DNA of 49,794 bases from Myxococcales bacterium. GTDB taxonomy: Bacteria > Myxococcota_A > Polyangia > Polyangiales > Houyiibacteriaceae. The position numbers and the translations under genes were made by a program. Every line of letters begins with the position of its first letter. Within the stretch, counting starts at the first letter, position 1. The DNA lies in contig JAHBWH010000045.1 of assembly GCA_019637115.1 (NCBI GenBank), forward strand, positions 1 to 49,794, given 5' to 3'. Below are positions 39,590-48,852 of this stretch, one piece after another. Under the pieces are notes generated by a model. It was given only the letters and a program-made list of their open reading frames with translations, did not search any database and had not been told where the DNA came from.

Positions 39590-41407
39590 ATGACCCGACC
39601 GTCCACCCCTCGACCGCGGCGCGTCTACGAAGGCGAAGAGCCCCCCGATCGTGTCCTGCGCGTGATCGTCCCCGTCGCGATCTTTCTCTTGGTCGTCGCC
39701 GCTTGGACCGCCGAGCGGGGCCGCGTGACTCATGATCTGCAGATCGTCGCCCCGACGGAGGTCGCGCCTGGCGCCACGATCCCGCTGCGCCTCACGGCGC
39801 TCGACCTGCGCGAGGTCCGACCGCGTTTCCTCGAGGGCTCGGCGCCATCCGTCAAGCTCGTCCGCCGCGCGGGGACCGTCGAGGCACCCGTCGACGAGGT
39901 CGTCGGTGAGGCGAGCCTCGTTTCCGCGGCCATTCCGGGGTGGGAGGGCGAGGTCTCGGCCCCGTCCGAGCCCGGCGGATACCTCCTGATCGCGACGGTG
40001 ACGCTCGACGACCACCCGCTGCGCGTCGAGCGCCCGCTGATCGTCGACCCGATCCCCGCGCCGCTCGAGCGCCGAGGCCGACTCCAGACCGACCCTCAGC
40101 GCTACACGCTCGGCCCAGTCCTCCCGGTCCGCGACCCATGGCTGGACCTGGCCCCCGCTGCCCTTGCCCCGGATACGGACACCGACACCCCGGCCCCGGC
40201 CCCAGCCCCAGCCCCGGACACGGCCCCGGACACGGCCCCGGACACGGCCCCGGACACGGCCCCGGAAACGGACACGGGAACGGACACGGGAACGGACACG
40301 GGAACGGACATGGGAACGGAAACGGGAACGGAAACGGCCTCAGCCCCAAACACCGCTCTGGACCCCACCGCCGCCCCACCCACCATCCTCGAGACCCGCG
40401 TCGTCGGTGGAGACTGCTCCCCGCCCGCGCCTTGTGTCCTCCTCGTGCTCGTCGGAGAGCCCGCGGCGGGGGTGCGGCTCCAAGAGCGCGACACCTGGCT
40501 CGACGCCGGGCCCGAGTGCGACGGAACCCTCGAGACGTCGGGCATCGTGAGGTGCGTGGTGACCGGAGAGGCGAACGCGCGCCTCCTCGACGTCATCGCG
40601 TACCGCGATCGAAAGGCCGTCGCGCGCACCCAGGTGCGCCTGCCCTACGGGACGGCCGCGCCCGCCCTCGAAGCGGGCCCCGCGCTCCAGCGGCCGACCA
40701 CGCTCCACCTCGCGACGCGCGACGGCCCGGACGCCGCGCTGGTGCTCGACGTCTTCCGCGACGAGCGGTGGGTCGGCACGACGAGCGTCCGGGGGGACGC
40801 GGTGGAGCTCCCCGAGCGATGGCTCGTCGCGCCGGGGCTCGTGCGCGTGCAAGCGCGCGTCGGCATGCACGCCATGGATCAGTCGGCGACGAGGCTGGCG
40901 TGGGCGAGCGAGGCCTCGGGCGCTGACGCCGCGCGAGGGCTCCGGGCCGCGTGGAGCGCTCAGTGGATCGACCCCGACGACGAGCCCGCGGCCGATTGGG
41001 AGGCGCTCTTCGAGGCTGACGCAGAGCGCGCAGCGCGCTTCGTGTTGGCCCTCGGAGAGCTCGAGATCCTGCATCTGCCGAGCCCGACGGCGAGCTCGAC
41101 GGCGGACCGCGAGGCGCTCGAAGCGAGGCTCGCGGTCCAGCGAACCATCGCGGCGGCGATCGTCATGCTCGCGGGCTTCCTCGTGGCGTTCGTCGTGGTC
41201 CGTCGCGGCCTCCGCGCGACCGCCGAGGCCGAGCGCATCGTCTCGACGGTCCGCGTCGACGAGTCGAGCGACGACGAGTCGAGCGACGACCACGACCCGC
41301 CGATCTCCGGAAAAGTCGGGCGCGGCCCCGTCTTCGGCGTCGGGCTCTTCATCCTGCTCCTCTTCGCGGCCGTCGCCTTCCTGGTCGCCGCCCGTGGCTG
41401 CACCTGA
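39590..41407 (+). CDS. Large membrane protein with repeat insert, unknown function
   Basis: This 605-residue protein has a helix near the N-terminus (VLRVIVPVAIFLLVVAAWTA), about 480 residues likely outside the cytoplasm, then two helices (AAAIVMLAGFLVAFVVV; VFGVGLFILLLFAAVAFLV) joined by an acidic DESSDDESSDDHD loop. The outer part has Ig-like strands (APGATIPLRLTALDL, GEVSAPSEPGGYLLIATVTL). An Ala-Pro/Asp-Thr/Gly-Thr repeat (about 190-250) is encoded by short tandem DNA repeats (40165-40345). It sits opposite the Fur-family gene and 259 bp before secA. No function can be assigned. Confidence 0.7.
   Translation: MTRPSTPRPRRVYEGEEPPDRVLRVIVPVAIFLLVVAAWTAERGRVTHDLQIVAPTEVAPGATIPLRLTALDLREVRPRFLEGSAPSVKLVRRAGTVEAPVDEVVGEASLVSAAIPGWEGEVSAPSEPGGYLLIATVTLDDHPLRVERPLIVDPIPAPLERRGRLQTDPQRYTLGPVLPVRDPWLDLAPAALAPDTDTDTPAPAPAPAPDTAPDTAPDTAPDTAPETDTGTDTGTDTGTDMGTETGTETASAPNTALDPTAAPPTILETRVVGGDCSPPAPCVLLVLVGEPAAGVRLQERDTWLDAGPECDGTLETSGIVRCVVTGEANARLLDVIAYRDRKAVARTQVRLPYGTAAPALEAGPALQRPTTLHLATRDGPDAALVLDVFRDERWVGTTSVRGDAVELPERWLVAPGLVRVQARVGMHAMDQSATRLAWASEASGADAARGLRAAWSAQWIDPDDEPAADWEALFEADAERAARFVLALGELEILHLPSPTASSTADREALEARLAVQRTIAAAIVMLAGFLVAFVVVRRGLRATAEAERIVSTVRVDESSDDESSDDHDPPISGKVGRGPVFGVGLFILLLFAAVAFLVAARGCT
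40165..40345 (+). repeat. In-frame tandem array inside the 605-residue protein gene
   Basis: CCGGCC/CCAGCC hexamers, then GACACGGCCCCG dodecamers, then GGAACGGACACG dodecamers follow in frame, coding for Pro-Ala, Asp-Thr-Ala-Pro and Gly-Thr-Asp-Thr repeats. Confidence 0.9.
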
Positions 41408-41666: not shown

Positions 41667-44900
<3,234 letters not shown>

Positions 44901-44974: not shown

Positions 44975-45018
44975 CGGACATGGATGCGGACGCGGACGTG
45001 GACGTGGACGTGGACAGG
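44975..45018. repeat. GCGGAC / GTGGAC hexamer array
   Basis: About seven GCGGAC and GTGGAC units lie between secA and the K+ channel gene, about 75 bp past the secA stop. A GCCGGC/GCCGGC hairpin at 44906-44921 precedes them. Confidence 0.85.
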
Positions 45019-45083
45019 GTCACGGTCACGGACTCCGCCCGAGAAGTCCGCGATCACAGGCAGAACGTGGCAACATCTCGCCC

Positions 45084-46436
45084 GTGCCCCGACGCCTAGC
45101 TCCCGTCTACGTCGAGCCGCTGATGCCGAAGTGGTGGGATCGGTTCGTCGTGGTCGCGACCTTCGGCGCGGTCTTCCTCCTCGTCTATTGGGAGGTCTTC
45201 GACGTCGACCCGGCCGTCGACCCATACCTCACGGCGCTCGACCTCACCTTGTGCGGCCTCTTCATCGTCGACTTCTTCGTGCGCCTCTCGCGCTCGGAGG
45301 GCTTCCGCTGGCGCTTCGTGCGGCGCAACTGGCCCGACCTCCTCGGCGCCATCCCCTTCTATGGGCCGCTGCGCGCGCTACGCATAGTGCGCGTATTGCG
45401 CGTCGTGCGCCTGATCGCGCTCGGTCGTCGGGTGATCCAGCGCTACGACCTGCCGCTCCTCCCCACGGCGACCTTCGCCTACCTCTTCTTGGTCGTCGCG
45501 GCGGTCTGGCTCGGCGCCGCCGCCATCTTCTTCGAGCTCGAGTCCCCGACCAACGAGGGCATCGACACCTTCGACGACGCGCTCTGGTGGAGCATGACGA
45601 CGCTCTCGACGGTGGGCTATGGGGATACCTACCCGACGACGACCGCGGGCCGTGTCGTCGCGATGGTGACCATGGTCTTCGGCGTCGGCGTTCTCGGCAC
45701 GCTCGCTGCCACCATCGCGGCGGGTTTCGTGGAGATGCGCGAACGTGGGATCCTCGGGCTCGGGAAGTCTCGCATGAAAAACCACCTGCTCATCCTCGGA
45801 TGGAACGACCGCAGCGATCGCGCGCTGCGGGAGCTGAAGCGCGATCCGCGCCATCAGGCGAGGGCGTTGCTCATCGTCGCGGAGCGCGAGCGCTCCCCCG
45901 TCGAGAACGTCGACTTCGTGCGTGGCGAGCCCGGGCGCGCCGAGGTCCTCGAGCGCGCCGGCGCGGCCAAGGCGAGCGCGGCGCTCGTCTTCGCGCGCGA
46001 CCCGCAGGACCCGCGCTCCGACCACGAGACGGCGCTCACGGCGCTCGCGTTCCGCCGGCTGAACCCGGAGGCGATCCTCGTCGCGGAGCTCGTCAGCCCC
46101 TCGAACCGCGAGCATTTTCAGGCCGCCGACTGCGACACCCTCGTCGACGGCGCGTCGCTCGTCGCGGACCTGCTCGTCCGATCCGTGAGCGAGGTGGGCG
46201 TCGACCGCGTCATCGACCGCTTCGTGCGACCCGGCGATGGGCGCGCGCTCTTCCAGATCGACTCGACGAAGCTCCGCGGTCGCTCGTGGAAGGACGCCGC
46301 GATCGCGCTCCTCGACCAAGGGCTCACGCTCGTGGCGGTGGGCCGAGGTCGTCAGATGATCCTCAGCCCCGACGACGTCTCGTTTCGGATCGCCGAGGGG
46401 GACGACCTCTTCGTCTTCGGTCGCGAGCGGTCCTGA
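45084..46436 (+). CDS. Voltage-gated K+ channel with RCK/TrkA domain
   Basis: A 450-residue six-helix channel. S1-S3 occupy about 25-90. S4 is a classical voltage sensor with Arg at every third residue in LRALRIVRVLRVVRLIALGR (about 95-114). A pore loop holds the K+ filter TVGYGD (175-180). The cytoplasmic part starts with NHLLILGWNDRS, a TrkA-N/RCK fold, and ends in a TrkA-C-like domain (ALFQIDSTKLRGRSW). It would conduct K+ on depolarisation and be gated further by a ligand. GTG 45084 is taken as start; the next Met is at 45123. The gene for a second voltage-gated channel follows 33 bp later. Confidence 0.92.
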   Translation: MPRRLAPVYVEPLMPKWWDRFVVVATFGAVFLLVYWEVFDVDPAVDPYLTALDLTLCGLFIVDFFVRLSRSEGFRWRFVRRNWPDLLGAIPFYGPLRALRIVRVLRVVRLIALGRRVIQRYDLPLLPTATFAYLFLVVAAVWLGAAAIFFELESPTNEGIDTFDDALWWSMTTLSTVGYGDTYPTTTAGRVVAMVTMVFGVGVLGTLAATIAAGFVEMRERGILGLGKSRMKNHLLILGWNDRSDRALRELKRDPRHQARALLIVAERERSPVENVDFVRGEPGRAEVLERAGAAKASAALVFARDPQDPRSDHETALTALAFRRLNPEAILVAELVSPSNREHFQAADCDTLVDGASLVADLLVRSVSEVGVDRVIDRFVRPGDGRALFQIDSTKLRGRSWKDAAIALLDQGLTLVAVGRGRQMILSPDDVSFRIAEGDDLFVFGRERS

Positions 46437-46469
46437 GATGCGTGGCATGAAGCGGAGGGTGGGGGAGCG

Positions 46470-47381
46470 ATGAGCGAGAACGAGACGGTCGAGCCGCGGG
46501 CCGCGAGCACGCCGAAGCCCTTCGGGCTCGCGGACCTCTTCACGGCCGACAAGCCGGTGCTCATCGCGATCGCGCTCAACGCCGTCGTCCTCTTCTTGCT
46601 GGCCTTCGACGAGCTCGCTTTCGATCCGATCCTGGAGGTCCTGGACTACGCGTTTACGACGTATTTCGTGATCGAGGCGGCCTTGAAGCTCCACACCGCG
46701 GGGGTGAGCGGCTACTTCCGAGAGCGTTGGAACCGCTTCGACTTCGTCGTCGTGCTGCTCAGCTTGCCCTCGTACGTGGTGCTCTTCGTCGAGCTCCCGG
46801 ATCTCTCGTTCTTGCTGCTCTTGCGGCTCGCGCGGGTGATGAAGTTCTTCCGCTTCATCCGCTTCGTGCCGAACATGCCCGAGCTCGTCGCCGGCGCGCG
46901 GCGCGCGATTCAGGCGTCCGCGTTCGTCGTGCTCGCCTTCTTCATCTTCAACTTCGTGGTGGCGCTCGTGAGCTGCCACCTCTTCCACACGGACGCGCCC
47001 GAGCACTTCGGCAACCCGGTCGTGTCGTTCTACTCCATCTTCAAGGTCTTCACGGTCGAAGGGTGGTACGAGATCCCCGACGCCATCACCGAGAACGCCT
47101 CGAGCGGCTTCGCGTTCTTCACGCGGGCCTACTTCATGGTGATCGTCGTCTCGGGCGGCATCTTCGGGCTCTCGCTCGTCAACGCCATCTTCGTCGACGA
47201 GATGCTCCGCAACGAGAACGACCTGATCGAGAAGCGCATCGACGAGCTGCACGCGAAGCTCGACGCGCTCCTGGCCGCCACGAGCGCGCGTGGCGCCCTC
47301 GTCGTGGGAGATGCCGTCGAGCCCGCGCGCGAGGGACGGAGCTCGAGGCCGAGCGACGCTCCACCTCCGGGCGACGAGTGA
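46470..47381 (+). CDS. BacNav/Cav-type voltage-gated cation channel
   Basis: A 303-residue single-repeat six-helix channel that would form a homotetramer. S4 is LLLRLARVMKFFRFIRFVP with basic residues every third position. The filter is TVEGW (195-199). NaChBac-type Na+ channels have TLESW; Gly after the Glu is found in repeats I and III of animal Ca2+ channels and in the bacterial Ca2+ channel CavMr, so Ca2+ selectivity is likely. A coiled coil (MLRNENDLIEKRIDELHAKL) follows S6 and aids tetramer formation. GGGGGAG precedes the ATG. It is co-directional with the K+ channel and probably co-transcribed. Confidence 0.9.
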   Translation: MSENETVEPRAASTPKPFGLADLFTADKPVLIAIALNAVVLFLLAFDELAFDPILEVLDYAFTTYFVIEAALKLHTAGVSGYFRERWNRFDFVVVLLSLPSYVVLFVELPDLSFLLLLRLARVMKFFRFIRFVPNMPELVAGARRAIQASAFVVLAFFIFNFVVALVSCHLFHTDAPEHFGNPVVSFYSIFKVFTVEGWYEIPDAITENASSGFAFFTRAYFMVIVVSGGIFGLSLVNAIFVDEMLRNENDLIEKRIDELHAKLDALLAATSARGALVVGDAVEPAREGRSSRPSDAPPPGDE

Positions 47382-47474
47382 GCGCCATCGCTCGCGCGCG
47401 CGTGACGTGCTCGCGGCGCCTCGATCACGTTCGCGCGTGATCCTCGCGCGCGGGTGCGGCATCCTTGGAGCGCC

Positions 47475-48227
47475 GTGAACCGACTCGAGACGCTGCCACT
47501 CCTCGTCGAGGTCGATCCTCCCGAGCTGCTGGTCTACGACGCACCCGAGCCGTGCCCCTACCTCGAGGGGCGCATGGCCCGGATGCCGCTGCGCCTCCCG
47601 GTGCGCGAGCTCGAGCCGCGCGAGCTCGACGCGCGGCTCGCGCGCGGCGACCGTCGCCACGGAGCGCTCTTCTATCGGCCCTCCTGCCCGAGCTGCCGCG
47701 CCTGCGAGCCGATCCGGCTCTCCACCGAGTACGTCCCCACGCGCACGCAACGCCGCATCCTCGAGCGAGGGCGACGCGAGCTCCGCGTCGAGATCGGCGC
47801 GCCGACCGTGGACGAGCAGCGGCTGCGTCTCTACGACGCGCACCGCTTCGGCCGCGGCCTCGCCAAGGAGGGCTCGTCCCCCATCGACGCCGAGAGCTAT
47901 CAACGCTTCCTCGTCGACCGCGCGTGCGAGAGCTTCGAGCTGCGGTACTTCCACGGCCAACGCCTGGTCGGGGTCGCGGTGACGGATCGGGGCGCGCGGT
48001 CGCTCTCGGCCGTCTACTGCTACTACGATCCGGACTTCGCGCGGTACAGCCTCGGCACGTACTCGATCCTCGAGCAGCTCGCGCTCTGCGCGGACCAAGG
48101 GCTCGAGCACCTCTACCTCGGGCTCTACATCGAGGGGTGCGACGCGATGAGCTACAAGGCCCGTTTCCTCCCGCACGAGCGCCTGGTGGAGGGGACGTGG
48201 AGGCGCTTCGAGCGCGGAGCGGAGTAG
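47475..48227 (+). CDS. N-end-rule aminoacyl-tRNA--protein transferase (Bpt/ATE)
   Basis: The 250-residue enzyme transfers Leu or Arg from tRNA to N-terminal Asp/Glu of proteins, marking them for ClpS-ClpAP. Hallmarks are PCPYL near the N-terminus, RPSCPSCRACEPIRL, LVGVAVTDRG, AVYCYYDPDFARYSLGTYSI and YLGLYIEGCDAMSYKARFLPHE. The GTG at 47475 has GGAG five bases upstream; a longer GTG start at 47454 is less likely. The next gene starts 4 bp after its stop. Sequence favours the bacterial Bpt group, but amino-acid choice is not certain. Confidence 0.9.
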   Translation: MNRLETLPLLVEVDPPELLVYDAPEPCPYLEGRMARMPLRLPVRELEPRELDARLARGDRRHGALFYRPSCPSCRACEPIRLSTEYVPTRTQRRILERGRRELRVEIGAPTVDEQRLRLYDAHRFGRGLAKEGSSPIDAESYQRFLVDRACESFELRYFHGQRLVGVAVTDRGARSLSAVYCYYDPDFARYSLGTYSILEQLALCADQGLEHLYLGLYIEGCDAMSYKARFLPHERLVEGTWRRFERGAE

Positions 48228-48231
48228 CCGG

Positions 48232-48852
48232 ATGAGCGAGCACGGAGAGGGGCGAGACGCCTGGGAGGATCACATCCGCCAGCGCGTCAAGGAGGAGCTC
48301 CGGCGACGGATGCGCGCCGTGCGCAAGGGCCTGCCCCGCGCCGCGCGGGCGGAGCGTTCGCGCCGCATCGCCGAGCGCGTCTCGGCGCTCGACGCGTTCG
48401 CGAACGCCGCGACCGTCGCTGGGTTCCTCGCCATCAAGGGCGAGGTGAACCTCGCGCCGCTCTACGAGGCGCTCGCCGCGCGCGGCGGACGGCTCGCGCT
48501 GCCCCGCGTCGACCTCGAGGAGGGCGCCATCGTGTTGCACGCGCATCGCGCCGGGGATCCCCTCGAAGAGAGCGGGTTTGGGGTGCCCGAGCCGATCGCG
48601 AGCGCCGAGCGGGTCGCGCTCGACGAGGTCGATCTCGTGCTGGTGCCCGGCTTGGCCTTCGATCCACGAGGCTTTCGCATCGGCTACGGTAAGGGCTATT
48701 ACGATCAGCTGCTGCCGACCCTGCCGCGGGCGCGTCGCGTGGCGGTCGGGTACGACTTCCAGCTCGTCGCCGAGGTCCCGAACCTGCCGCACGACGAGGC
48801 CGTCGACCTCATCGTGACCGACGCGCGGGTGATCGAGGTCGAGGGTCGCTGA
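48232..48852 (+). CDS. 5-formyltetrahydrofolate cyclo-ligase
   Basis: A 206-residue cytosolic enzyme that converts 5-formyl-THF to 5,10-methenyl-THF with ATP. Motifs include LRRRMRAVRKGL at the N-terminus, AGFLAIKGEVNLAPL, LALPRVDLEEG, and the signature DLVLVPGLAFDPRGFRIGYGKGYYDQLL (about 137-164). It starts 4 bp after the aminoacyltransferase stop, so both are probably co-translated. A 22-bp gap separates it from the convergent phosphoesterase gene. Confidence 0.93.
   Translation: MSEHGEGRDAWEDHIRQRVKEELRRRMRAVRKGLPRAARAERSRRIAERVSALDAFANAATVAGFLAIKGEVNLAPLYEALAARGGRLALPRVDLEEGAIVLHAHRAGDPLEESGFGVPEPIASAERVALDEVDLVLVPGLAFDPRGFRIGYGKGYYDQLLPTLPRARRVAVGYDFQLVAEVPNLPHDEAVDLIVTDARVIEVEGR

Follow-up and report, generated by a model that had tools for sequence, protein, structure and literature searches.

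Adjacent genes for a predicted voltage-gated K+ channel and a Ca2+-type channel in a Myxococcales bacterium, and an apparently uncharacterized family of Gly4-filter channels

Two ion channel genes lie side by side at positions 45084-47381 of a 49,794-nucleotide stretch of DNA from a Myxococcales bacterium (the window), which raises the question of whether their products act together in one electrical system or whether the genes are neighbors by accident. An earlier note on the window described a K+ channel gene and a Ca2+-type channel gene separated by 33 bp, positions and spacing that proved exact, and proposed that the pair supplies the minimum for electrical excitability. The observation itself held in our analysis, whereas its interpretation found partial support, and we treat an excitability module as a lead, that is, as a working hypothesis. 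The stronger finding is the channel family to which the downstream gene belongs, named EGW in this analysis after its selectivity filter.

Structure of the two genes and their surroundings

The pair is preceded by a SecA gene ending at 44900 and followed by genes for an arginyl-tRNA-protein transferase (47454-48227) and a 5-formyltetrahydrofolate cyclo-ligase (48232-48852). Because the gap between the two channel genes is only 33 bp, both genes share a strand and no terminator-like site was found between them by a promoter/terminator scan, which carries little information at such GC content and likewise returned no promoter, the two genes are probably co-transcribed (Table 1). The genome holds no second copy of the EGW channel and only one Ion_trans gene besides the two channels in the window. 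A short, GC-rich tandem repeat (ggacgc/ggacgtggac) lies at 44978-45025, downstream of SecA and upstream of the K+ channel gene, and a 605-aa open reading frame upstream of SecA (39590-41407) contains extended repeats of Ala-Pro and Asp-Thr (PAPAPAP, DTAPDTAP, TDTGTDTG) and has no match in Pfam or NCBIfam.

Table 1. Positions of the two channel genes and their principal features in the window.
Feature	Position	Strand	Basis
Kv-type K+ channel gene, six TM helices and C-terminal RCK domain, 450 aa	45084 (GTG)..46436	+	Pfam, MthK match, orthologues at 49-60%
S4 arginines R97, R100, R103, R106, R109	45372..45410	+	Invariant in 4/4 orthologues
K+ filter TVGYGD	45609..45626	+	Sequence; invariant among orthologues
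RCK domain, N-terminal TrkA_N part	45789..46145	+	PF02254, E 2.7e-06, residues 223-341
33-bp gap	46437..46469	.	Sequence; purine-rich stretch ggagggtgggggag immediately 5' of the EGW ATG
Single-domain voltage-gated channel of the EGW family, 303 aa	46470 (ATG)..47381	+	Ion_trans 7.2e-33; AlphaFold model; tree
S4 charges R119, R122, K125, R128, R131	46824..46862	+	Alignment
Selectivity filter TVEGWYE (T1-V2-E3-G4-W5-Y6-E7)	47052..47072	+	Sequence; 100-homologue alignment
Cytoplasmic extension of S6 helix	47205..47306	+	Model helix 212-279; coiled coil inferred

The upstream gene combines Ion_trans (5.7e-21), Ion_trans_2 (8.1e-17) and TrkA_N (RCK) matches in Pfam, and we prefer its GTG start over the ATG at 45123 because two orthologues conserve the intervening residues (PR.L[AS]P.YVEP.MP). 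The TVGYGD filter and RCK domain described in the earlier note were both found, together with five S4 arginines at three-residue spacing, the features of a voltage-gated K+ channel with an RCK domain, and by this signature the protein is predicted to be K+-selective. Its predicted structure is weak (pLDDT 63, four sequences) and serves for domain identification only. In a tree of K+ channels the protein falls among RCK-bearing channels, its nearest neighbor being the channel from a genome of the same genus. A TVGYGD-type pore followed by RCK is likewise found in MthK, Kch and Slo, although MthK lacks a voltage sensor and Slo carries two RCK domains per subunit; the Kch model PRK10537 matches the window protein with E 1.1e-24, scoring 87 bits where the cut-off is 425. 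Among solved structures the Ca2+-gated MthK comes closest over the pore and RCK regions, aligning to residues 112-430 of the 437-aa form; GsuK and Slo1 rank next.

The downstream gene encodes a channel with a basic residue at every third position of S4, acidic counter-charges in S2 and S3 and one pore loop, as in single-domain voltage-gated channels of the Ion_trans type. Among 41 aligned sequences R119 and R122 are invariant, K125 is Arg or Lys in all 41, R128 in 40 and R131 in 27, while the acidic E69 (S2) and D91 (S3) are almost invariant. Both window channels thus have the full S4 sensors previously proposed, each with five charges at three-residue spacing that are largely conserved in homologues. 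In the AlphaFold model (pLDDT 87.9, 41 sequences) the channel is complete from S1 to S6 and its long S6 helix runs to residue 279; this extension may possibly form a tetramer-forming coiled coil like that of the bacterial sodium channels (BacNavs). The solved structures nearest to the model are NavMs, NavAb, CavAb and CatSper chains, in effect tied. We considered whether the channel is particularly close to CatSper and rejected the idea, as the CatSper chain 7eeb_B ranks first by structure but with a Z of 16.0 against 15.4, a tie with NavAb.

The EGW family and its place among known channels

Homologues of the downstream channel occur in Bacteroidota (chiefly Saprospiraceae), Myxococcota, Planctomycetota, Lentisphaerota and Calditrichota, and their distribution is sparse, with 9 of 317 genomes in the window's class, 11 of 377 in its phylum, 4 of 392 in Planctomycetota and 9 of 296 in a sample of Bacteroidota. 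The family filter can be written T[VIL]EGW[YN]E. Across 100 homologues E3 and W5 are invariant, position 4 is Gly in 92 and Asn in 8, Tyr and Asn predominate at position 6, and 92 have an acidic residue (Glu or Asp) at position 7. Since the residues retained in homologues from many phyla, at 30-68% identity, are precisely the functional ones, conservation of the EGW channel is, as judged by alignment, more than chance would give. A nested branch (L073, L075, L077, L078, L081-L084) from Vibrio, Oceanospirillum and Verrucomicrobiota carries the filter T[VI]ENW[GA]A, in which position 7 is not acidic, and its selectivity may differ from that of EGW channels. Plasmid carriage was set aside, as the only plasmid matches were three weak ones at 23-29% identity.

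Canonical BacNavs (NavAb, NaChBac and NavMs) share with the window EGW channel an S1-S6 fold with a long S6 extension at 22-27% identity; their filter is of the TLESW type with Ser4, whereas the EGW channel has Gly4 instead. In our tree NavAb, NaChBac and two NavPp-like channels group together outside the EGW clade with support of 100/100, across a very long branch; the tree program flags a meeting of long branches at this point. For NavAb and NaChBac, the sequences used in this tree were verified in the PDB.

The closest filter in the literature belongs to CavMr of Meiothermus ruber, the first native prokaryotic voltage-gated Ca2+ channel reported, in 2020, whose TLEGWVD filter shares its Gly4 with Cav repeats I/III (PMC7041947). 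The earlier note had drawn this parallel for TVEGW, and Gly4 is indeed present: TVEGWYE has the Gly4 within a T-x-E-x-W core that marks an AnclNav/CavMr-type filter. Both CavMr and the window EGW channel are single-domain voltage-gated channels with T-x-E-G-W and an acidic position 7, yet position 6 is Val in CavMr and Tyr in the window channel. The published group of CavMr, AnclNav, includes NavPp (PMC7041947), and in our tree this group is represented in place of CavMr by the two NavPp-like channels, identified by their TLEDWTD filter alone. Because these channels are well separated from the EGW clade, the likeness to CavMr, on the available sequences, is one of the filter and need not mean close kinship. 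NavPp-like channels with TLEDWTD were also seen in two relatives from the window's own family (L004 and L005, in genomes G015 and G009), and no EGW channel was found in those relatives.

Animal Cav repeats I/III and CatSper have an EGW/DGW filter core like that of the EGW channel, but animal Cav channels have four domains where the EGW channel has one, and with the EGW family profile NavMs (131 bits) outscored every Cav2.2 repeat (best, 105 bits). Our literature searches for bacterial EGW channels returned nothing relevant, and the family is apparently a separate, uncharacterized clade of native Gly4-filter channels.

Linkage of the two genes

Conservation of the linkage, a test on which the earlier note had staked its proposal, was assessed by running tblastn with two Kv proteins as queries against 102 EGW family loci besides that of the window, and for 98 of these a K+-filter pattern was applied as well; two of the loci (L040 and L142) carry an identical protein, some are shortened by contig ends, and 92 of the first 98 have at least 800 bp upstream. 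A K+ channel gene adjoins the EGW gene at one locus (L016) and is absent from the other 101, and three orthologues of the window K+ channel, from the same genus, the same family and the same order, do not lie next to an EGW gene. These three orthologues were not beside SecA or the transferase either in the stretches examined. A conserved Kv-EGW operon across the family is therefore rejected. At the single positive locus, in the metagenome-assembled Planctomycetota bacterium KatS3mg102, the EGW channel is closer to that of the window than any other homologue is (68% over the best segment; sister with support 100/99). The neighboring gene, about 130 bp upstream and in the same orientation, encodes a Kv channel of 266 aa that lacks RCK (Ion_trans 4.4e-27), and in the K+-channel tree this Kv channel falls outside the RCK-bearing group that contains the window K+ channel. 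The planctomycete EGW gene (L016:6001-7021) is split over two reading frames, by assembly error or as a decayed gene.

With 93 Ion_trans_2 genes counted in 36 genomes, and taking a genome to hold roughly 4,000 genes, we estimate about 3 chance adjacencies per 10,000 loci, so the Kv gene beside the sister channel is probably meaningful and not accidental, although the paired cases number only two. Elsewhere the neighborhood is of another kind. In Bacteroidota an acyltransferase gene (PF01553) lies on the same strand in 28 EGW loci, upstream in 26 and often within 160 bp; in Saprospiraceae the channel gene comes after it, and an RNase_T-type exonuclease gene lies downstream in 16 loci. The EGW family therefore has no general tie to K+ channels, and the pairing marks an association at the level of lineages instead of an operon that the family has conserved. 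The linkage proposed earlier is absent from nearly the whole family but present in the closest homologue.

The explanation we consider best overall, and hold with roughly even confidence, is that the window carries adjacent, probably co-transcribed genes for two homotetrameric voltage-gated channels that would generate a self-limiting Ca2+ pulse. Depolarization would open both channels; the EGW channel would let Ca2+ in, and the K+ channel would pass K+ outward and restore the voltage, ending the pulse, while the RCK gating ring could tune the Kv channel from inside through a ligand. Several findings count against such coupling, namely the single pairing among 102 other loci, the acyltransferase neighbors in Bacteroidota, the Tyr6 in place of the Val6 of CavMr, the K+ channel orthologues unlinked in three relatives, and the total of two paired cases, one of them split over two frames.

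Some of these findings also bear on the leading alternative, to which we assign less than an even chance, in which two independent channels are neighbors by chance, the K+ channel serving K+ homeostasis through an RCK ligand and the EGW channel, a probable product of gene transfer, serving for cation entry. The pairing is missing from nearly the whole EGW family, the K+ channel groups in the tree with its unlinked counterparts from the same genus and two other relatives, and the sister of the EGW channel belongs to another phylum; the recurrence of a Kv gene beside that sister, at the low rate expected by chance, argues the other way. In the simplest history, a transferred EGW gene would have come to lie next to a K+ channel gene already old in the lineage, with a similar pairing in the planctomycete involving another Kv channel.

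Ion selectivity and possible coupling

The pulse described above depends on Ca2+ entry, and the label Ca2+-type given to the channel in the earlier note survives in part: the Gly4 is there, but selectivity is not readable from it alone. High Ca2+ selectivity in CavMr needs Gly4 and Val6, not Asp7, and Gly4 is key in two backgrounds, with G4S and G4D in CavMr losing and D4G in NavPp gaining divalent selectivity (PMC7041947). Given the Gly4 and acidic position 7 of its filter, though with Tyr6 and not Val6, the window EGW channel is likely permeable to Ca2+ and probably selective for it.

We regard as rather unlikely the alternative that the EGW channel is Na+-selective or non-selective and that the pair is a Na+/K+ couple without Ca2+ signaling. 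It draws on NavPp, a Na+-selective and Ca2+-blocked channel whose TLEDWTD filter has more acidic residues (PMC7041947), on the requirement of CavMr for Val6 where the window channel has Tyr6 and on the nested branch with ENW in place of EGW, and it is opposed by the decisive role of Gly4 in both the CavMr and NavPp backgrounds (PMC7041947) and by the retention of Gly4, and likewise of an acidic position 7, in 92 of 100 family members.

A feedback resembling that of Cav and BK channels, in which Ca2+ entering through the EGW channel would bind the RCK ring of the K+ channel and open it, appears improbable. The kinship to MthK over pore and RCK speaks for it, and of the MthK Ca2+ site, which we take to be D184, E210 and E212 (the numbering of D184 and E212 is confirmed by mutant entries), the first two residues are matched in the window K+ channel by the alignment to MthK. 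However, the position of E212 is Val in all four orthologues, and the planctomycete Kv partner has no RCK. RCK rings can instead bind nucleotides, as described for GsuK (PMC3510474).

We likewise give little credence to a minimal excitability unit producing Ca2+ spikes, in which a native Ca2+-selective channel of an undescribed family is expressed together with a K+ channel that responds to both voltage and ligand, and which would have arisen separately in the planctomycete with a different Kv.

Whatever the fate of the pulse model, a Gly4-filter clade well apart from BacNavs provides about a hundred further candidate Ca2+ channels, among them those of named isolates such as Marinoscillum pacificum MRN461 and Neolewinella xylanilytica DSM 29526. 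Should even a few be Ca2+-selective, they would serve as small homotetramers in which to study how the filters of animal Cav repeats I/III work and would allow bacterial use of voltage-gated Ca2+ entry to be tested directly, and the adjoining Kv gene makes the window a testable two-gene system for electrical signaling within one cell. The acyltransferase neighbor in Bacteroidota may hint at a link of the channel family to membrane lipids. An example of this arrangement is L017:4009-5952, with 27 other Bacteroidota loci alike, and at 18 Bacteroidota loci a GTPase gene (MMR_HSR1) lies further upstream.
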